The notes under the pieces: generated by a model
The model's input: the letters and a program-made list of their open reading frames with translations, nothing else
Told to the model about the DNA's origin: nothing
Database searches by the model: none
IMG/VR virus record: IMGVR_UViG_3300045999_007904
Span: 1 to 22,028 of that record
DNA: 22,028 nt
DNA from: a virus
Reading direction: 5' to 3' (one strand)
Position numbers and translations under genes: made by a program
Shown: in pieces, positions 1,825 to 10,307 of the stretch
Position numbering within the stretch: position 1 is the first letter of the stretch
How the letters are laid out: every line of letters starts with the position of its first letter

Positions 1825-2070
1825 ATGACCATTACCAAAAACGGTAAATATCAACCTCGGCGAGACATGCGGCCACATCCATTGCCGGATGAAATCTGGG
1901 CGGCACGTCTGGCCGCTAACCTCACCCAGTATGAGGCCGGCTATCTGCTGTATACCAGCAATCGCCATTGGTCAAATTGGGAGACTGGAGCGTCCAAAAT
2001 GCCTCGCGCAGCGTGGCATCTGTTCCTGATCCTGACCGACCAGACCGACAAGCTGGAAAAAACGGCATAG
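1825..2070 (+). CDS. Helix-turn-helix (XRE-like) DNA-binding protein, 81 aa
   Basis: Residues about 23-60 (EIWAARLAANLTQYEAGYLLYTSNRHWSNWETGASKMPRAAWHLF) follow the XRE/Cro pattern: a first helix, the LTQYEAGYLL turn segment, the recognition region ending in WSNWETG, then a closing helix. The S/xxWExG signature is frequent in such phage regulators. The N-terminus is basic and proline-rich and probably disordered. GGAG (1811-1814) precedes the ATG. It would act as a transcription regulator in the cytoplasm; its operator is unknown. The AGTTCGCG repeats at 2442-2707 are one possible, untested target. Confidence 0.6.
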   Translation: MTITKNGKYQPRRDMRPHPLPDEIWAARLAANLTQYEAGYLLYTSNRHWSNWETGASKMPRAAWHLFLILTDQTDKLEKTA

Positions 2071-2164
2071 GAAGCGTTTTGACGCTTTTGGCTACGCAGA
2101 ATTGTTTTCAACCACAGACCCCACTAGAAACGCCTTAAAACGCGAAATAGAGGCATTTTGAACC

Positions 2165-2386
2165 ATGAATGACAACTCATCTGAACGATCCCGCGATTTT
2201 ACCCGCAACAGCTTGATCAACAATCTGGAGGGAATGGCAATCTGGATGTACGCTTTTCCCGAACAGGTGGACATGCTGCACAAGGACGACCTGCTTCAGA
2301 TCCAGATGTCCGCCGAGAGGCTGGAAACCCGGCTCAATCAGACGCTAGACTGGCTGGCCCGTGAAACGGGGAGGAAACGGAAATAG
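2165..2386 (+). CDS. Hypothetical helical protein, 73 aa
   Basis: Last gene of the operon, 94 bases after the HTH gene and directly followed by a strong terminator. The product is soluble, with a helix around IQMSAERLETRLNQTLDWLARETGRKRK and a basic C-terminal tip (residues 68-73). No motif or known family is recognised. The ATG at 2165 has only a weak upstream purine run (AGGC), so translation may be low. Confidence 0.5.
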   Translation: MNDNSSERSRDFTRNSLINNLEGMAIWMYAFPEQVDMLHKDDLLQIQMSAERLETRLNQTLDWLARETGRKRK

Positions 2387-2405
2387 CAACACCATCCCCA
2401 GAACA

Positions 2406-2431
2406 CCCCGGCCATTGTGCCGGGGTTTTTT
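2406..2431 (+). terminator. Rho-independent terminator of the small-gene operon
   Basis: CCCCGGC (2406-2412), loop CATTGT, GCCGGGG (2419-2425), then six T (2426-2431). A 7-bp G+C stem with an immediate U-tract 20 bases after the stop of the last gene is a textbook terminator. Confidence 0.9.
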
Positions 2432-2457
2432 ATGACCGCATAGTTCGACAAGTTCGC

Positions 2458-2486
2458 GATAGTTCGCGCTAAATCCGCGAACTATC
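2458..2486. repeat. Perfect 11-bp inverted repeat within the iteron cluster
   Basis: GATAGTTCGCG (2458-2468), 7-base spacer CTAAATC, CGCGAACTATC (2476-2486). It joins two iteron units head to head and could bind a dimeric protein or extrude as a hairpin. A second, shorter copy (TAGTTCGC, 8-base spacer, GCGAACTA) is at 2674-2697. Confidence 0.8.
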
Positions 2487-2581
2487 TCCCAAACCAGCTT
2501 TCCTACTCTATCTATATGATAATAATTAATAATTCTCTCTCTTATACTACGTATAAAGGTAGTTAGTTCGCGCATAGCAAT

Positions 2582-2624
2582 ACCCCCCCTTCCCATTTTT
2601 TCCTTTCGGAGGGGAAGAGGGGGT
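2582..2624. repeat. C-tract/G-tract hairpin in the candidate origin
   Basis: An ACCCCCCCTTCCC arm (2582-2594) can pair with GGGAAGAGGGGGT (2612-2624) with a single C-A mismatch, leaving a 17-base loop that contains a T6 run. The strong strand asymmetry (C-rich then G-rich) is unlike the rest of the window. It may be a single-strand initiation hairpin or a polymerase pause site. Confidence 0.5.
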
Positions 2625-2709
2625 GGCGCGAACTGCGAACTAACCGATTTTTCCGTTAAATATCAAGGCGCTTTAGTTCGCAAAAATCCGCGAACTATCT
2701 GCGAACTTG

Positions 2710-4851
2710 CTAACTATCTCTGCCTCTAACTCTATAATATCTAACAGTTTTTCCAGTTGTACCCTTTTTTTCGTCGTAGTCAAGCTCTCCTGAATCGATC
2801 AACTGGATAATTGCCTCCTTAAAATCCCGTTGCCGGGCAGAATTGAACTTTTTTAAAAGCGCCGTGTGCGTGATCGTGCCCGATTCGCGAACGTATCCCA
2901 GAAGCTTTTTCAAAAACCCGCCCCATTCCGTGTCAGACACGTTCTCGGCCAGACCCTTAGCAAGACTGTCAGCGCAAAACAGCGCCACATCCCGACCCCA
3001 CTCCATCGCTTCCTCGCTGATCTGGCCGTATTCATGCGCCAAAAGCGCCAGCTTGGCCGCATGTTCGGCAACCCGGCCATAAACGACATGCAACCCCGTC
3101 TTGTGAATGATCGCCTTATCGCACCGCTCGTCCATATCCAGCACTAACGCATCCCACATCCGGCGGGCACCGTCGGTCATGGGGATGGTGGCAGGGCGCA
3201 ATCCCGCAAACGGATCATCCCGTGTCGGCTGGTTCAGGCCGCCTGATATGATATGGTTTGTCATGGATAAGAGCGCGGCAGGCGGTTGTTCCACAGACCC
3301 GCCCTGTTTGCGCTTGGGAAGGCCGTCAGGGCACTGGAACAATAACCAGCGTGGCAGGAAGCCCGAACTGGCATCACGGCTCTTCAGCGCCGCGAAAAAA
3401 CTTTCAGGCTCGGACATCCCATAAACCGACAGGCATGGATCCTGAATGACCTTGGTCTCGATCTTTTCGTCTGCATACTCCCGGCCCCGGTACGCCGTTG
3501 TGGCGCTGGTTGCCAGCTTGGTGAGCGTGGTCAAAACCTCGGATTGCACCGTGGCATTCCGGTGGGTTAATTTCTCCAACTCCTTCCCCATCTCGTCCAT
3601 GATGGAAAGCGCCCGGCCTTGGCGTTTATGCAGCGCCATAACGATCCCGGATTCCGAGAAGAACGATCCCGTCATCATGGCCGCCGCTTCTGTTCCGCAA
3701 GCGTTTAGGAGACTGTCTAAACACCGCCGCCCGTGATCCTTGCCCGTGCCCGATGCGGCAATGCCAAGGGTGTACATGTTAGTTCTAAGATCCGTTTCAG
3801 TGCGGATCTTGTGCGCATACACGGCCCCGGCCCCGGCAATGGCCGCAGCCATAGACAGCAGCGGCGTTTCCCGGCGGCTGGTGGATTCGATCCAATCCCT
3901 CAACATCCCGACATAGCCGGGGGCGCGCAACATGCACACAGGCAGCCCGGATTGCTTGGCCCGGACGTGTTCTTCCACCGACTGCATGAAGGCCGTTGCA
4001 TCGAACTCGTCATCATCCGGCGGTGTTGGCAGCCACCCCTGCCCGATAGCATGGTGAAACAGTGTTCCGATATCAATCGGGCGGCCCTTGTACTTGCCAA
4101 AGCTGGCCCACTTGCGCGGCATTTCGTCAGGCTTGTATGTGCTACCTCGGCTCGACCAGTTATCCCACACCTGGAACCCGGCATCGCCAAAGGCGTTGTG
4201 CAGCGCCATGCCGCAGTCCACCCAGTCCTGATACGGCTCGCAGCTGATATGATCCAGCGCCCGGCGCACCTCTTCCACATCGGGCGGCGGCAGGTCTGAT
4301 CTAACAGGTGGCATCAGGCGGGTGACGCCCATAAGATCATCCACCACCTTGACAAAATCCACAGGTAGTAGCGGCAACTCAACATCGCCCAGGGTGTCCT
4401 GGGTGAGCCAAGTGTATGGCTGGCGCGTGTCTGGGTGGATCGACGGCGGCAGCACGGTGTGCCGCCCAATGGAAAGCAGTTCAAGAACGCACTTGCCATC
4501 TTTTGACCATTTCCGGTTGCGCTCGTCCTGGATTTTGTAAAACCACGTTTCCCCCCGTGCGCCACGTTTTCTCACAGGCGACGGCGGCAGCTTGGCCTTG
4601 ATCTTGGCGTGGAGGCCGTCCACGTCCTCGTCAAAATCCAGCGCCACAATACCGGACGCTGGCCCGGTGCACAGGCCGATTCCGCCCGATCCGTAAACGC
4701 CCTCCCATTCATCAATCTCGGATTCTGCCGCTGGCCGCTGGCAATAGATTTGCCAACCTTTGACAGCCGGGATCTTTTCACCCGAACGCAACGGGATAAC
4801 CGACAGGCCGCTCTCCCAAAGCCGTCGGCCATAATCTGCGAAAACAGTCAT
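2710..4851 (-). CDS. Primase-helicase: PrimPol domain, PriCT-type linker, DUF3987-like ATPase
   Basis: 713 residues. Residues 5-165 resemble a bifunctional primase/polymerase (AEP) domain: VIPLRSGEKIPAVKGW, the metal-binding ALDFDED (70-76) and the SIGRHTVLPPSIHP strand (127-140). Residues about 190-270 look like the PriCT_2 module (ALDHISCEPYQDWVDCGMALHNAFG, WDNWSSRGS). Residues 300-680 match the DUF3987 helicase-like pattern, with Walker A GIAASGTGKDHG (363-374) and Walker B SIMDEMGKE (416-424). It should synthesise primers and unwind DNA at the replication fork. It starts three bases after the stop of the HTH gene, so the two are co-transcribed leftward. Its end abuts the proposed origin. 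Length and domain order are normal for phage primase-helicases. Confidence 0.85.
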   Translation of the reverse strand: MTVFADYGRRLWESGLSVIPLRSGEKIPAVKGWQIYCQRPAAESEIDEWEGVYGSGGIGLCTGPASGIVALDFDEDVDGLHAKIKAKLPPSPVRKRGARGETWFYKIQDERNRKWSKDGKCVLELLSIGRHTVLPPSIHPDTRQPYTWLTQDTLGDVELPLLPVDFVKVVDDLMGVTRLMPPVRSDLPPPDVEEVRRALDHISCEPYQDWVDCGMALHNAFGDAGFQVWDNWSSRGSTYKPDEMPRKWASFGKYKGRPIDIGTLFHHAIGQGWLPTPPDDDEFDATAFMQSVEEHVRAKQSGLPVCMLRAPGYVGMLRDWIESTSRRETPLLSMAAAIAGAGAVYAHKIRTETDLRTNMYTLGIAASGTGKDHGRRCLDSLLNACGTEAAAMMTGSFFSESGIVMALHKRQGRALSIMDEMGKELEKLTHRNATVQSEVLTTLTKLATSATTAYRGREYADEKIETKVIQDPCLSVYGMSEPESFFAALKSRDASSGFLPRWLLFQCPDGLPKRKQGGSVEQPPAALLSMTNHIISGGLNQPTRDDPFAGLRPATIPMTDGARRMWDALVLDMDERCDKAIIHKTGLHVVYGRVAEHAAKLALLAHEYGQISEEAMEWGRDVALFCADSLAKGLAENVSDTEWGGFLKKLLGYVRESGTITHTALLKKFNSARQRDFKEAIIQLIDSGELDYDEKKGTTGKTVRYYRVRGRDS

Positions 4852-4854
4852 TTT

Positions 4855-5031
4855 TCAGGCCTTTTTTGTGTTCAGATAGTTGTCAAGCGCAACCGTGGTG
4901 CTGAGACTTGGCACATAGTTTTCATCCCGCATGATGCGGTAGATGGTTTCCCGATGCAGCCCCGTGGCTTTGGCAACCACATTCAGGCGACGGTCTGACA
5001 GTTCCGCCCGGATTTCCTTGAGGGTACGCAT
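4855..5031 (-). CDS. Small Cro-like HTH transcription regulator, 58 aa
   Basis: A short gene starting MRTLKEIRAELSDRRLN at 5031. Residues 17-34 (NVVAKATGLHRETIYRIM) form a clear helix-turn-helix, with the ATGLHRETI turn and recognition helix, and the tail SLSTTVALDNYL matches the dimerising helix of Cro/XRE proteins. It is about Cro length and lacks a cleavable C-terminal domain, so it is a simple repressor/activator rather than a LexA/CI-type. It reads leftward into the primase gene, and the palindromes at 5061-5096 lie between it and the rightward Sak4 operon, making it the obvious regulator of both directions. A weak purine-poor ribosome site precedes it. Confidence 0.7.
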   Translation of the reverse strand: MRTLKEIRAELSDRRLNVVAKATGLHRETIYRIMRDENYVPSLSTTVALDNYLNTKKA

Positions 5032-5060
5032 ATTTTTTTGCCCTTATCGTTGTTTTTGAC

Positions 5061-5096
5061 GTTGACAGGTTGTCACTTTTCCAGTTAACTGTCAAC
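5061..5096. promoter_or_regulatory. Divergent control region: palindromic operator over a promoter
   Basis: GTTGACAG (5061-5068) and CTGTCAAC (5089-5096) form a perfect 8-bp inverted repeat with 20 bases between. Within it TGACA-GGT-TGTCA (5063-5075) is a second, compact palindrome. On the plus strand TTGACA (5062-5067), a 17-base spacer and TTAACT (5085-5090) make a consensus -35 with a weak -10, driving the gene at 5121. A protein bound to the palindromes would cover the promoter, so repression by the adjacent HTH protein is the likely mode. Confidence 0.6.
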
Positions 5097-5120
5097 ACGA
5101 CAAAACAAAGGGAGTCAAAA

Positions 5121-5894
5121 ATGATTGATCTGACAAAGCGCCAAACCAAGCCGCCCAAGCCGCCGCGCATTGTGCTGTATGGTGAGCCGAAGGTTGGCAA
5201 GAGCACGTTTTCGGCGCAATGCCCGGATGTGTTTTTTATCGATACCGAAGACGGCCACGACTATTTGCGCCGGGAATTGGGCGACCGATACAACGGCGCA
5301 CAGGTGACATCTTTTGCAGCGCAGCGTGACGGTGAGCATTCGTTTGTCGAGGTGCTGACGGCGCTCGCAAAACAGGATCATCCATTTAAGGCCGTGTGCA
5401 TTGATACGGTGGACTGGCTGGAACGCATGGTGCATGAGGACATTTGCGCCAAGTACGGTGCTACCAGCATCACGGACAAGAAGAACGAGCGAACCAGCTA
5501 CGGACAAGGCTACATTGCCGCTGCGAACGTGTTCCGCGACATCTGCTTGCGCCTTGATCGGCTGCGGGCGGCAAAGGGCATGACGGTGATTCTGCTGGCG
5601 CATAGCGTTTGCAAGCGCATCGAAGAGCCGGATGCGGAAGGCTACGATCGGTTTGTGATGAAATTACACGAAAAAGCGGAAGCCGTGATACGTGAATGGG
5701 CAGATATGCTGCTGTTTGCCCGACTGGAGACGCGAACTCTTGCCACAGGCCAGAAGGTTCAAGGCGAGCGTGTTTTGATTTCTGGCGGTAGCCGAATTGC
5801 TGTTGTTGGCAGCCGCACGGCTTTGCCGGATCGCCTGCCGCTGAATTGGCAGGATTTTATCAACGCCTATAATGGCAAAACGGAAGGAAACTAA
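5121..5894 (+). CDS. Sak4-like ATPase (phage nucleotide-binding protein, AAA_24)
   Basis: 257 residues from the ATG at 5121, chosen because AAGGGAG (5108-5114) lies at proper distance; an upstream in-frame ATG at 5070 lies inside the promoter and is rejected. Walker A is GEPKVGKST (21-29), Walker B AVCIDTVDW (91-99), and TVILLAHS (155-162) is the sensor strand. Layout and length fit the Sak4/AAA_24 group, RecA-like core ATPases linked to phage single-strand annealing recombination. It likely loads onto single-stranded DNA with the DUF669 protein encoded four bases downstream. First gene of the rightward replication operon, under the operator at 5061-5096. Confidence 0.8.
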   Translation: MIDLTKRQTKPPKPPRIVLYGEPKVGKSTFSAQCPDVFFIDTEDGHDYLRRELGDRYNGAQVTSFAAQRDGEHSFVEVLTALAKQDHPFKAVCIDTVDWLERMVHEDICAKYGATSITDKKNERTSYGQGYIAAANVFRDICLRLDRLRAAKGMTVILLAHSVCKRIEEPDAEGYDRFVMKLHEKAEAVIREWADMLLFARLETRTLATGQKVQGERVLISGGSRIAVVGSRTALPDRLPLNWQDFINAYNGKTEGN

Positions 5895-5897
5895 CCC

Positions 5898-6404
5898 ATG
5901 TTTGATTTAGACTTTGGCGGCATCGACGTTGCCGACGTTGTGACTGATGTGCGCGTCCCGGTGGTTCCTGCTGGCGTGTATGCAGTCCACATTGTGGATT
6001 GCGACCTCAAGCAGATCACAGGCAAAGACGGCACGAAATACCCGCCTGTAACGCATATCTTTTTTGAGATTCTGGAGGGGCCGGAACAAGGGCGACTGAT
6101 TGATATTGGTTTCAGTCTGGCCGATAAACGCGAACAGGTGAGCAAAACCGGAAAGCCGTACACTTGGGCGCAGATTGCACACGGGCAGGTTGGCCGCATC
6201 TATAAGGCCGTTGGCGTTGCCAAGATGGGCAAGCTGTCCGAGATTAAGGGCAAAAAGTTTTTGCTTGGCGTGAAGGTTCGGGAAAAGAACGAGTACGAAT
6301 CGAACGAGTTTGAATCGGCGATGGAGTACCGTGCATCGTTTACGCCTGCCCCGGCTCAGGCAGCACCCGCACAAAAAACGGCTGATCCGCTCAACTGGGA
6401 ATAG
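5898..6404 (+). CDS. DUF669 family protein, probable single-stranded-DNA-binding partner of Sak4
   Basis: 168 residues, starting three bases after the Sak4 stop with GGAAAC as ribosome site. The sequence has the DUF669 layout: FDFGG-type start (MFDLDFGGIDVADV), VPAGVYAVHIVDCDLK, then an interrupted beta-barrel ending FLLGVKVREKNEYESNEFESAMEYRAS. An Ala/Pro/Gln-rich linker (150-162) and acidic tip DPLNWE follow, which resembles the protein-interaction tail of single-strand binding proteins. In phages DUF669 genes commonly sit beside Sak4-type ATPases; SSB-like activity is inferred from that and the fold pattern, not proven here. Confidence 0.7.
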   Translation: MFDLDFGGIDVADVVTDVRVPVVPAGVYAVHIVDCDLKQITGKDGTKYPPVTHIFFEILEGPEQGRLIDIGFSLADKREQVSKTGKPYTWAQIAHGQVGRIYKAVGVAKMGKLSEIKGKKFLLGVKVREKNEYESNEFESAMEYRASFTPAPAQAAPAQKTADPLNWE

Positions 6405-6456: not shown

Positions 6457-8661
6457 ATGGACTATCAAGAGTTTGTTAATCGCAAAATTAAAACAGAAGT
6501 GCCTACTGGCCATAACCCTGAATCACTGAATGAAAACCTGTTTGATTTTCAGCACGCCATTGTAACATGGGCCGCTCGTCGTGGTCGCGCTGCGATTTTT
6601 GCAGATACTGGCCTTGGCAAAACGCTGATGCAGTTGTCATGGGCGGATGAAGTGGCAAGCCATACAAATGGCGCTGTTCTTGTGCTTGCGCCATTGGCTG
6701 TTTCAGAGCAGACGATTGAACAAGGTTCAACCTTTGGCATTGAAGTGCGCCGCGTGCCGCGTGACAATGGCAAAAAGCCGCTTGATCCAGGCGTGTGGAT
6801 CACGAACTACGAGCGCATGGATTCGGTGGACTTTACCGAACTGACCGGGCTTGTCCTTGATGAATCCAGTATTCTGAAAGCGCATGATGGCAAGACCAGA
6901 ACCGCGCTGATTGATGTTGCGCAAGGCATCCCTTACCGATTGAGCTGCACCGCAACGCCAAGTCCGAACGACTTTGAAGAACTCGGCAATCAATGCGAAT
7001 TTCTAGGCGTTATGAGCCGCACCGAGATGCTGGCGACGTACTTTGTTAATGACACTGGAGACACAGGCACATGGCGACTCAAAGGCTGGGGCGCATCTAA
7101 GTTTTGGGAATGGATGGGATCGTGGGCTGTCGTCGTGCGCAATCCGTCCGATATCGGATTTGATGGATCTCGCTATGATCTGCCGCCGCTCAATTATTAT
7201 GAGAATGTGGTAGATGCAAAGCCGCTGGGGGATGAACTGTTCTCGCGGCCTGCTTTGACACTTACAGAACGTCGCAAGGCTCAACGAAACAGCATTGAAG
7301 AACGCTGCAAATCCGTTGCTGATTTGGTGAATGCCAAGTTGGATGAACAATGGCTTATCTGGTGCCATTTGAACGATGAAGCGGAATTGTTGCAATCATT
7401 GATTCCCGGAAGTGTCAATGTTCAAGGTTCTGACGATCCCGATAAAAAAGCAAAAAACCTGCTTGATTTTGCGCATGGTGAATATCGCGTTTTGATCAGC
7501 AAGCCGAAGATTGCCGGTTATGGGATGAATTTTCAAAAGTGTTCACACATGGCATTTGTTGGCATGGATGATTCATTTGAGAAATTCTATCAGGCCGTCC
7601 GTCGTTGCTATCGTTTCGGGCAGACAAAGCCAGTCAATGTTCACTTGTTCACGGCGGAAAATGAAGGGCAGGTTTTGTTTAACCTTAAACGCAAAGAAAA
7701 ACAGCATCACATCATGAGCGAAAAAATGACTGAACACATGGGGGATATCATGAAAAACGAACTCAAAGGACAAGTTAAGATCACTGAAGAATATCGAGAG
7801 GATGTTTATCACGGAGATGGATTCACCGTGCATCTTTCCGATTGCGTTAAGCTGGCGAGAAACATTGAATCTGATTCTATTGATTACTCGATTTTTTCGC
7901 CGCCGTTTGCTGACCTGTTTGTTTATTCAAACAGCAACTACGACATGGGGAATTGCAAAAATGATGAAGAATTTATCCAGCAATTCAAATATCTGATTGC
8001 TGAAATGTTCCGGATCATCAAGCCGGGACGCAATGTGTCCTTTCATTGCATGAACCTGCCGACAACCAAAATGCGTCAAGGTTATATCGGACTGCGCGAT
8101 TTTCGCGGCGACCTGATCCGTGCATTTCAGGAAGTCGGGTTTATCTATCATTCTGAAGTGTGCATCTGGAAAGATCCAGTTGTGGCAATGCAGCGAACTA
8201 AGGCACTCGGATTGCTACACAAAACAATCCGCGAGAATGCCAGCATGAGCCGTATGGGGTTGCCTGATTATGTGGTGACAATGCGCAAGCCGGGTGAAGC
8301 TGAAGATCGCGTTGTTCATGGTGATGATCTGCCTGTCATGCTGTGGCAGAAATATGCAAGCCCTGTTTGGGATGACATTAATCAGGGGCGTACTTTGAAC
8401 AAAATGCCAGCCCGTGACGAAAACGACGAAAAGCACATGTGCCCGTTGCAGCTGGATGTGATCGAGCGGTGCATTCACCTTTGGACAAACAAGAATGATC
8501 TTGTGTTCTCGCCGTTTACCGGGATCGGATCTGAAGGATATTGTGCTGTCAAAATGGGCCGGCGGTTTATTGGATCTGAATTGAAGCCGCAATATTGGCA
8601 ACTGGCATGCCAAAACATTGCCGATGCCAAGGTTGAGCAAAAGGATCTGTTTGCATGCTAA
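6457..8661 (+). CDS. SNF2-type helicase fused to a DNA methyltransferase
   Basis: 734 residues with two enzymes in one chain. Residues 25-430 form a SNF2/SF2 ATPase: FADTGLGKT (48-56, Walker A), LVLDESS (132-138, motif II), SCTATPSPND (163-172, motif III), and QAVRRCYRFGQTKP (379-392, motif VI). Residues 445-734 form an amino-methyltransferase with motif IV SPPF (481-484) before motif I FSPFTGIGSEG (684-694) and GSELKPQYW (707-714), i.e. the beta-type order. SPPF, rather than D/NPPY, is typical of N4-cytosine enzymes such as PvuII methylase, so N4-cytosine specificity is inferred. It would move on phage DNA and methylate it, perhaps as anti-restriction. AAGGGAG precedes the start. It overlaps the next helicase by 7 bases. 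Confidence 0.85.
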   Translation: MDYQEFVNRKIKTEVPTGHNPESLNENLFDFQHAIVTWAARRGRAAIFADTGLGKTLMQLSWADEVASHTNGAVLVLAPLAVSEQTIEQGSTFGIEVRRVPRDNGKKPLDPGVWITNYERMDSVDFTELTGLVLDESSILKAHDGKTRTALIDVAQGIPYRLSCTATPSPNDFEELGNQCEFLGVMSRTEMLATYFVNDTGDTGTWRLKGWGASKFWEWMGSWAVVVRNPSDIGFDGSRYDLPPLNYYENVVDAKPLGDELFSRPALTLTERRKAQRNSIEERCKSVADLVNAKLDEQWLIWCHLNDEAELLQSLIPGSVNVQGSDDPDKKAKNLLDFAHGEYRVLISKPKIAGYGMNFQKCSHMAFVGMDDSFEKFYQAVRRCYRFGQTKPVNVHLFTAENEGQVLFNLKRKEKQHHIMSEKMTEHMGDIMKNELKGQVKITEEYREDVYHGDGFTVHLSDCVKLARNIESDSIDYSIFSPPFADLFVYSNSNYDMGNCKNDEEFIQQFKYLIAEMFRIIKPGRNVSFHCMNLPTTKMRQGYIGLRDFRGDLIRAFQEVGFIYHSEVCIWKDPVVAMQRTKALGLLHKTIRENASMSRMGLPDYVVTMRKPGEAEDRVVHGDDLPVMLWQKYASPVWDDINQGRTLNKMPARDENDEKHMCPLQLDVIERCIHLWTNKNDLVFSPFTGIGSEGYCAVKMGRRFIGSELKPQYWQLACQNIADAKVEQKDLFAC

Positions 8662-10307
8662 CCTTGCGGCCATACCAGCAAGAAGCCGTCGATGCGTTCT
8701 ATCAGACCATCCGGGACAAGGTGCCCGGACACGGTTTGATAGAGCACGCAACGGGTCTGGGCAAATCCGTCATCATTGCCAAGGTTGCGGCGGATATGCA
8801 CAACTGGGGACGGCGTGTGCTGATCCTTGCCCATGTGGCCGAGCTACTGGAACAAAACCACGCCAAGCTTCAGGCTATGCTGCCTGAGATCCCCGTTGGG
8901 CTTTACAGCGCCAGCCTGAAGCGGCGTGACATCAATGCAACCCCATTGGTGGCTGGCATCCAGAGCATCCACAACAAGGCGGCACAGGTGTTTCCACCTC
9001 CCGATGTTGCTATCATAGACGAATGCCACCTCACGTCCCCTAACGCCGGTAGCATGTATCGCAAGTTTCTGTCTGACCTATGGCAACAGAACCCTAAGAT
9101 GCGCCTGCTTGGGTTGACTGCCACACCATATCGGCTAAAAGGTGGTTGCCTGATTTCCAGTAAGGATTCTTTGTTTTCGCATACTATCCACAAGTTTGGC
9201 ATGGGTGACGGTATCCGGGAAGGCTATCTTTCGCCCGTGACATCCAAGGCATCCCTTGTGCAGGCTGACCTCACTGGCGTGACGACGCAGAACGGGGATT
9301 TCAATCAGGCAGAAATGGCGGCGCGATTCAGCCCGGCTCTGACGTTAAAAGCGCTGGAAGACTTGCTTCAAAAGGCGCACGACCGCCGCAGTATCCTGAT
9401 TTTTGCCGCGAATGTTGAACACGCCGAGTTTATCACGGAATGCCTCGACGGCGCGGCTATGGTTGATGGCAGCACCCATAAAGAGACACGGGCGCGACTG
9501 ATCGAGGATTTCCGACAACGGCGTTTGCGCTTTCTGGTCAACGTCAACGTGCTGACCACCGGGTTTGATGCACCCAATGTTGATTGCATCGGGCTTTTGC
9601 GTGCCACAAAATCACCCGGCCTGTATGTGCAGATCGTGGGGCGCGGCACACGAAAAGCGGAAGGGAAGCAAAATTGCCTCTTGCTGGATTTTGGGGGCAA
9701 CATAGAACGCTTTGGCCCGGTCGAGCATATTAAGCTGCGAAAGAAGTCCGACGGCTCCACAGAGGCACAGGGAGCGCCAGTAAAGACCTGCCCGAAATGT
9801 GAAGAAAAGGTTCACGCTGGCGTGCTGGAATGCCCTGCCTGTCACTACAGGTTTCCAGCAATCATGGCTACGCATCAAACCAAAGCCTCAGAAGCTGCGG
9901 TGTTGGAGGGCATCGAGGATGATATCCGGGACGTGTCGCATTGGTTCTGGGAACGTCACAAAGGCAAGGGCGGCAAGCCTGACACGGTGCAAATCACATA
10001 CTTTTGCGGCTTGGCGCAATTCAGGCAATGGATTTGCCCGGAGCATGAGGGTTATGCCCGGCGGCAGTATTTGGAGTTTGCGACGCTGTTCAAACATCCG
10101 ATTTATAAAACGGTGGATGATGTGCTGAAATGGTTTCATGATACGAAGCCGAAGCCGCCGGGCAAGATCACCGTAAAGCGGAATCCAACAGGTTATTGGA
10201 ACGTACTGGAACACAAAAGGGAGTATATCTATGGACAAGAAGCCGACACAGTGGGACGTGGACAACTGGAAAAAAGTTATCAAGGAGATTTTAGACTTTT
10301 ACCCTGA
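8655..10307 (+). CDS. SF2 DEAD/DEAH-type helicase with C-terminal zinc ribbon
   Basis: 550 residues. Helicase motifs in order: RPYQQEAVD (5-13, Q-like), HATGLGKS (31-38, Walker A), IIDECH (120-125, DExH box), GLTATPYR (153-160), LVNVNVLTTGFDAP (294-307), QIVGRGTR (326-333, motif VI). A four-cysteine zinc ribbon follows at C379, C382, C393 and C396. The C-terminal 130 residues (WFWERHKGKGG, QFRQWICPEHEGYARRQYLEFA) are typical of phage members of this group. It probably unwinds or remodels DNA in replication or recombination. Its start lies within the end of the methyltransferase gene (ATGCTAA), so the two are coupled. The next gene starts inside its 3' end. Confidence 0.85.
   Translation: MLTLRPYQQEAVDAFYQTIRDKVPGHGLIEHATGLGKSVIIAKVAADMHNWGRRVLILAHVAELLEQNHAKLQAMLPEIPVGLYSASLKRRDINATPLVAGIQSIHNKAAQVFPPPDVAIIDECHLTSPNAGSMYRKFLSDLWQQNPKMRLLGLTATPYRLKGGCLISSKDSLFSHTIHKFGMGDGIREGYLSPVTSKASLVQADLTGVTTQNGDFNQAEMAARFSPALTLKALEDLLQKAHDRRSILIFAANVEHAEFITECLDGAAMVDGSTHKETRARLIEDFRQRRLRFLVNVNVLTTGFDAPNVDCIGLLRATKSPGLYVQIVGRGTRKAEGKQNCLLLDFGGNIERFGPVEHIKLRKKSDGSTEAQGAPVKTCPKCEEKVHAGVLECPACHYRFPAIMATHQTKASEAAVLEGIEDDIRDVSHWFWERHKGKGGKPDTVQITYFCGLAQFRQWICPEHEGYARRQYLEFATLFKHPIYKTVDDVLKWFHDTKPKPPGKITVKRNPTGYWNVLEHKREYIYGQEADTVGRGQLEKSYQGDFRLLP

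Follow-up and report, generated by a model that had tools for sequence, protein, structure and literature searches.

Known origins and their initiators

Every PICI origin lies directly 3′ of the initiator gene (rep or pri-rep) and consists of an AT-rich region with a set of iterons on either side, a layout said to be common to no other known bacterial replicon (PMC6092414). In the SaPI system, Rep is reported to recognise the iterons directly downstream of its own gene by means of its C-terminal domain (PMC7581432). The isolated C-terminal domain of Cch2, the SCCmec helicase, likewise binds repeats situated directly downstream of its own gene (PMC7581432), while priming is left to a separate CCPol-MP pair. 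In the PLE satellites of Vibrio cholerae, the DNA-binding domain of RepA and the origin covary, have been swapped at least twice, and work only as cognate pairs; these origins are targeted by an origin-directed nuclease, which may have selected for the swapping (PMC8263062). The PLE initiator carries an N-terminal RepA_N domain without any predicted primase or helicase (PMC7145576), and the PLE iterons are semi-palindromes of about 30 bp.

Other initiators carry the primase themselves. In the archaeal plasmid pRN1, ORF904 unites a PrimPol-type primase, an SF3 helicase, and a C-terminal winged helix, and the origin, a stem-loop of about 100 nt devoid of iterons, lies 3′ of its own gene; this stem-loop model was extended to phage BIP-1 (PMC4234260). 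In phage P4, origin binding, helicase action, and priming at an iteron-type origin are all entrusted to the single protein alpha, whose primase domain is of the Toprim type (PMC4234260). Primases of the PrimPol-PV1 supergroup have an AEP, PriCT, and DUF3987 architecture; the portions of that work drawn on here predict DUF3987 to be a helicase, and describe no origin or iteron readout for its fusions (PMC5862659).

The DNA analysed here, called “the window” in what follows, is the 22,028-nucleotide IMG/VR virus record IMGVR_UViG_3300045999_007904, probably a fragment. Its 323-bp gap beside a primase-helicase gene is probably an iteron-type origin, with iterons read by the C-terminal winged helix of that adjacent primase-helicase, and with reader and repeats exchanged together as a cassette. 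As the PICI layout, the pRN1 domain plan, and PLE swapping are all known, the window combines known parts in a new setting, namely a tailed-phage contig with an AEP-DUF3987 initiator.

The gap and its surroundings

The gene content of the window is as expected for a tailed phage, and the contig looks like a fragment of one. The genes scanned include a terminase small subunit as well as ribonucleotide reductase (RNR), thymidylate synthase, endolysin, and a lipase-like protein, and these last four set the contig apart from the satellites that carry PICI and SaPI origins. A replication and recombination neighbourhood is marked by a Sak4-like recombinase ATPase (5118–5894, plus strand), directly followed by an SSB-like gene (5898–6404). 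Beyond it, 6457–8661 encodes an SNF2-like helicase fused to an N6/N4 DNA methyltransferase, with a second SF2 helicase next to it (8655–10307), and further on lies a PAPS reductase-like phage gene (12660–13424, phrog_424) without a Pfam match. No RNA family has a match within the window.

The gap itself (2387–2709) separates the convergent ends of a plus-strand ORF (2165–2386) and of the minus-strand primase gene, whose stop is at 2710, which is the setting next to the primase-helicase described in an earlier note on this DNA. The ORF, on the far side of the gap from the primase, is small and conserved (57–90% in relatives), and its transcript ends at an intrinsic terminator that bounds the gap (2405–2431, plus strand, z −4.3).

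An array of iterons around an AT-rich core

All ten copies of AGTTCG that the earlier note had counted in this gap, in both orientations, were located. They form two sets that flank an AT-rich core. Set A (2442–2483) is made of four AGTTCG(CG) copies, at 2442(+), 2451(+), 2461(+), and 2478(−), and set B (2565–2707) of six, at 2565(+), 2629(−), 2636(−), 2675(+), 2691(−), and 2702(−). The iteron sequence of the window reads AGTTCGCG. The array stands directly 3′ of the primase, its first iteron beginning two bases past the stop. Set A includes a perfect 11-bp inverted repeat (2458–2468/2476–2486), and an exact 17-base direct repeat, AAATCCGCGAACTATCT, read from the sequence on the plus strand, is found at 2471–2487 (partly as repeat family D4) and again at 2684–2700, 213 bp away. 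The core, the proposed melting region, is 72% AT over 2490–2564 and 78% over 2510–2560. Inverted repeat, direct repeat, and core are thus all present as first described.

Across the whole window, AGTTCG occurs 21 times against 7.6 expected, a number reached in none of 100 shuffles; with ten copies in the gap, the remaining 21.7 kb holds only 11. As a control for choosing the motif after the fact, the commonest 7-mer of any sequence was counted: the best one in the gap has 9 copies (shuffle mean 2.1, maximum 3), whereas elsewhere in the window the richest 330-bp stretch reaches 4. The array is the only one of its kind in the 22-kb contig. Motif density thus bears out the earlier proposal, but GC skew leaves the array unmarked: the cumulative curve is lowest near 5 kb, at the point where the genes switch direction.

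A primase-helicase ending in a predicted winged helix

The proposed initiator is the 713-residue primase-helicase encoded on the minus strand (2710–4851), made of a Prim-Pol domain, PriCT_2, a DUF3987 ATPase, and a C-terminal winged helix. It matches Pfam PF09250 (E 1e-16), PF08707, and PF13148, as well as phrog_3022 (DNA primase). The C-terminal domain (residues 641–713; 2713–2931, minus strand) is the proposed iteron reader, and its fold is predicted. An AlphaFold2 model of the C-terminal 81 residues (pLDDT 85.5) has the order helix-helix-helix-strand-strand, as in a winged helix, and Foldseek and VIA-align match it to winged-helix proteins such as MarR, HxlR, MecI, and Z-alpha (Z 9–10). The structural reading is taken solely from this model, the full-length AlphaFold model being unusable (pLDDT 35), and these matches to generic winged-helix proteins show a fold rather than a function or any particular family.

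Could the array then be an operator or silencer, through which the primase winged helix or another phage regulator controls transcription of the convergent genes instead of replication? Winged helices do often serve in the control of transcription, and most of the proteins matched by fold are regulators. We nevertheless regard this as very improbable: the array sits at convergent 3′ ends, the sole promoter-like site within 1900–5300 is distant from it (4908–4935), the reader seemingly belongs to a primase-helicase, and two sets round an AT core reproduce the layout of known origins (PMC6092414).

Repeats and primase C-terminus switch together

Scans of IMG/VR yielded six loci with close primases, one of which (L007) ends before the gap. 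No relative was found among the genome contigs searched, and a pattern scan of viral contigs with TAGTTCGCG...CGCGAACTA returned, beyond the close relatives, only lone palindromes (L009, L011, and L012) and no arrays. In three loci (L003, L004, and L006; primase 97–99% identical), all ten AGTTCG copies are kept in the same places. In L005 (primase 94% identical), the slot is occupied by ten GTACAC/GTGTAC copies, and in L008 (82% over the part present) by eight GCCACA copies (AGTGTGGC). The expectation that related phages would carry the same array next to the primase thus holds for the first three, while the other two have repeats of their own.

What surrounds the iterons is more constant. L005 and L008 retain the terminator and an AT core ending in TTTATTATCATATAGATA, and the right part of this core is conserved across all three iteron types. 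Within the core, the minus-strand element TTATTATCATATAGATA (2509–2525), which contains the near-palindrome TTATC-N5-GATA, is kept in 6/6 aligned loci. The C-tract/G-tract hairpin inside set B (2581–2625, about 45 nt), also reported by the earlier note, is present in all three types, although its stability barely exceeds that of composition-matched shuffles (z −2.0 and −1.5); covariation was looked for in it and gave no evidence. This hairpin could be a terminator or a single-strand priming site.

These comparisons also dispose of the reading in which the gap is chance or decaying sequence, or else a short unrecognised gene. A mechanical 83-aa ORF (2345–2596, minus strand) does overlap the array, but in L004 and L006 it does not persist as a single frame, and the slot holds different repeats in L005 and L008. 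With an array above all shuffles, such a reading is scarcely credible, and we consider it refuted by the array statistics together with the conservation in relatives.

Along the primase, residues 1–640 are 97.2–99.5% identical in those relatives whose gene is complete, and 95.5% over the portion present in L008. Residues 641–713 remain 98.6% identical in L003, L004, and L006, and fall to 60.9% in L005 and 62.3% in L008, so that this drop is confined to the two close relatives with changed iterons (n = 2 switched loci), and the identity of the winged helix follows the iteron type. The boundaries are sharp in the DNA as well. Between the window and L005 or L008, identity is mostly 0.8–0.93 up to about base 1920 of the primase gene (about codon 640), 0.3–0.75 from the C-terminal codons through most of the gap, and 0.92–0.97 again at the start of ORF 2165–2386. 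L003, L004, and L006, whose iterons are unchanged, remain at 0.83–1.0 over these codons and the iterons next to them, except for part of the AT core.

The two helix-turn-helix (HTH) proteins put forward in the earlier note as possible readers were rejected. The one encoded at 4855–5031 (minus strand, upstream of the primase) is 93% identical in same-iteron and switched-iteron relatives alike, and the HTH-like protein at 1825–2070 (plus strand) is only 61–62% identical in L004 and L006 despite their unchanged iteron. A packaging site was also discarded, since the terminase small subunit is 70% identical in L003, with the same iteron, and 78% in the L008 contig, with another.

Because the C-terminus and the iterons switch together, while the HTH genes and the terminase small subunit do not, the simplest account of the aligned sequences is that the C-terminal domain reads the iterons and is exchanged together with them as one cassette. 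Recombination could in principle have dragged along an array that is linked to the primase but unrelated to it: since the changed DNA forms a single contiguous block, array and C-terminus could have moved together by linkage alone, while some other phage or host protein (a small HTH, partition, or packaging protein) reads the repeats. We hold this to be very improbable. The small HTH genes and the terminase small subunit are independent of iteron type, no ParA/ParB-like gene is among the window genes scanned, and, inside the exchanged block, the AT core and the hairpin remain alignable while the iterons differ.

Arrays beside distant homologues

A further 25 distant primase homologues were sampled, 20–25% identical to the window primase where compared over full length, and for each the most frequent 7-mer within 800 bp 3′ of the primase was set against 60 shuffles. 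It exceeds all 60 in 8/25, and the other 17 have no array above all shuffles in the 800 bp directly downstream. The eight are Synechococcus phage Ssp-JY40 (AACCGAC, nine copies), Rhizobium phage RHph_TM3_3_14B (TTCCAAA, seven), Sinorhizobium phage AP-16-3 (AATTCCA, six), Spartinivicinus ruber plasmid pC (GTGAAAA, six), Pseudoalteromonas phage H103 (GATAGTA, five), and L022, L064, and L073 (four copies each).

The Rhizobium phage and AP-16-3 have repeats in common, and their C-termini are 89% identical. Within the Synechococcus clade, L016 and L064 differ in their repeats (AACCGAC vs. TTTTTCAA) and have C-termini only 40% identical, against 81% for the N-terminal parts. Sinorhizobium phage NV1.1.1 (L053), with a C-terminus 60% identical to that of the Rhizobium phage, has no significant array. 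In these comparisons, repeat type and C-terminus are associated in the same direction in other clades, which again speaks against hitchhiking and for the exchange of reader and iterons as a cassette.

Several neighbouring loci deserve mention in their own right. TTTATTATCATATAGATA also occurs within a GGTAGAC array (8 copies) at L041:5480–5700 and in L042, near an unrelated VapE-type primase, and L120 has a 16-bp version next to a GTGGTTA/ACTAACC array, near base 4034 of its minus strand; the element may be a component that origins share whatever their initiator. In S. ruber plasmid pC (L058:4763–5056), a PrimPol-DUF3987 gene precedes a TTTTCACAT array placed around an AT-rich region; a plasmid may therefore be driven by the same module. 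A different origin-like layout is seen in Loktanella phage pCB2051-A (L022:4920–5270), where the DNA directly 3′ of the primase has an AT-rich core surrounded by inverted repeats that are long and perfect (e.g., TTGACCAATCCTTAGCCGTCGAAC).

Comparison with described systems

Like PICI and SaPI origins, the candidate origin of the window lies immediately 3′ of the initiator gene and has two iteron sets around an AT-rich region. SaPI Rep is reported to recognise its iterons through the C-terminal domain; here, domain and repeats covary strongly at the sequence level. Contrary to PICI and SaPI, the initiator is an archaeo-eukaryotic PrimPol and DUF3987 protein. The window origin is classed as PICI-like in its proposed mode of action, whereas the contig, with its tailed-phage genes, is not counted as a PICI. 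With PLE it shares the exchange of reader domain and iterons as a cassette, functional in PLE and here seen in the sequences. The protein is a Prim-Pol/PriCT_2/DUF3987 initiator rather than a RepA_N one, and its 6–8-bp iterons go with a C-terminal winged helix.

The domain plan is closest to that of pRN1. The window primase combines PrimPol with a (predicted) C-terminal winged helix as in the ORF904 type, with the origin 3′ of its own gene, although phmmer relates it to ORF904 only at E 0.12. In place of a long stem-loop, the window has iterons and the short hairpin of marginal stability. Phage BIP-1 does match the window primase, but here again iterons are found rather than the stem-loop model. 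As with P4 alpha, origin binding, helicase, and priming would fall to one protein at an iteron-type origin, although the primase domain is archaeo-eukaryotic Prim-Pol and not Toprim. Binding of repeats directly downstream of its own gene by a C-terminal domain, as in Cch2, is what we propose for the window, except that a single protein would also prime. The AEP, PriCT, and DUF3987 architecture is that of the PrimPol-PV1 supergroup (PMC5862659).

A model for initiation

The evidence supports the iteron-type candidate origin of the earlier note: the motif is infrequent elsewhere, the array is kept beside the primase in relatives, and repeats and C-terminus co-switch. The winged helix would bind the AGTTCGC(G) iterons of both sets and so tether the primase-helicase there, a step strongly suggested by the covariation. 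By analogy with established systems, from which ring assembly, melting, and initiation are all borrowed, helicase rings would then assemble on both iteron sets and melt the intervening AT core, where the PrimPol domain would prime, so that replication would start at the gap. Exchange of the cassette between related phages would create new origin specificities on an otherwise unchanged phage.

Significance

An AEP-type primase with DUF3987 is a common possession of phages and mobile elements, and the literature searched gave no described origin for such enzymes. For the window and its relatives, sequence suffices to name a candidate origin, the domain that probably reads it, and three natural variants of specificity borne by an almost identical protein, which makes origin recognition testable with short DNA probes and a domain of about 75 residues. 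The locus suggests that phages, too, have the two-set iteron layout that was described as unique to their satellites, and that the swapping of origin specificity known from PLE satellites takes place in phage genomes. More tentatively, and with less than even confidence, we propose that in PrimPol-DUF3987 phages, origin specificity resides in a cassette of about 0.5 kb, formed by the C-terminal winged helix and the iterons downstream of it, which is exchanged rapidly. Its diversity would be driven by other genomes, or by enzymes able to recognise origins, for instance co-infecting relatives, satellites, or origin-directed nucleases. If this is true, such cassettes on a near-constant primase-helicase would make up a natural code linking winged-helix sequence to DNA sequence.
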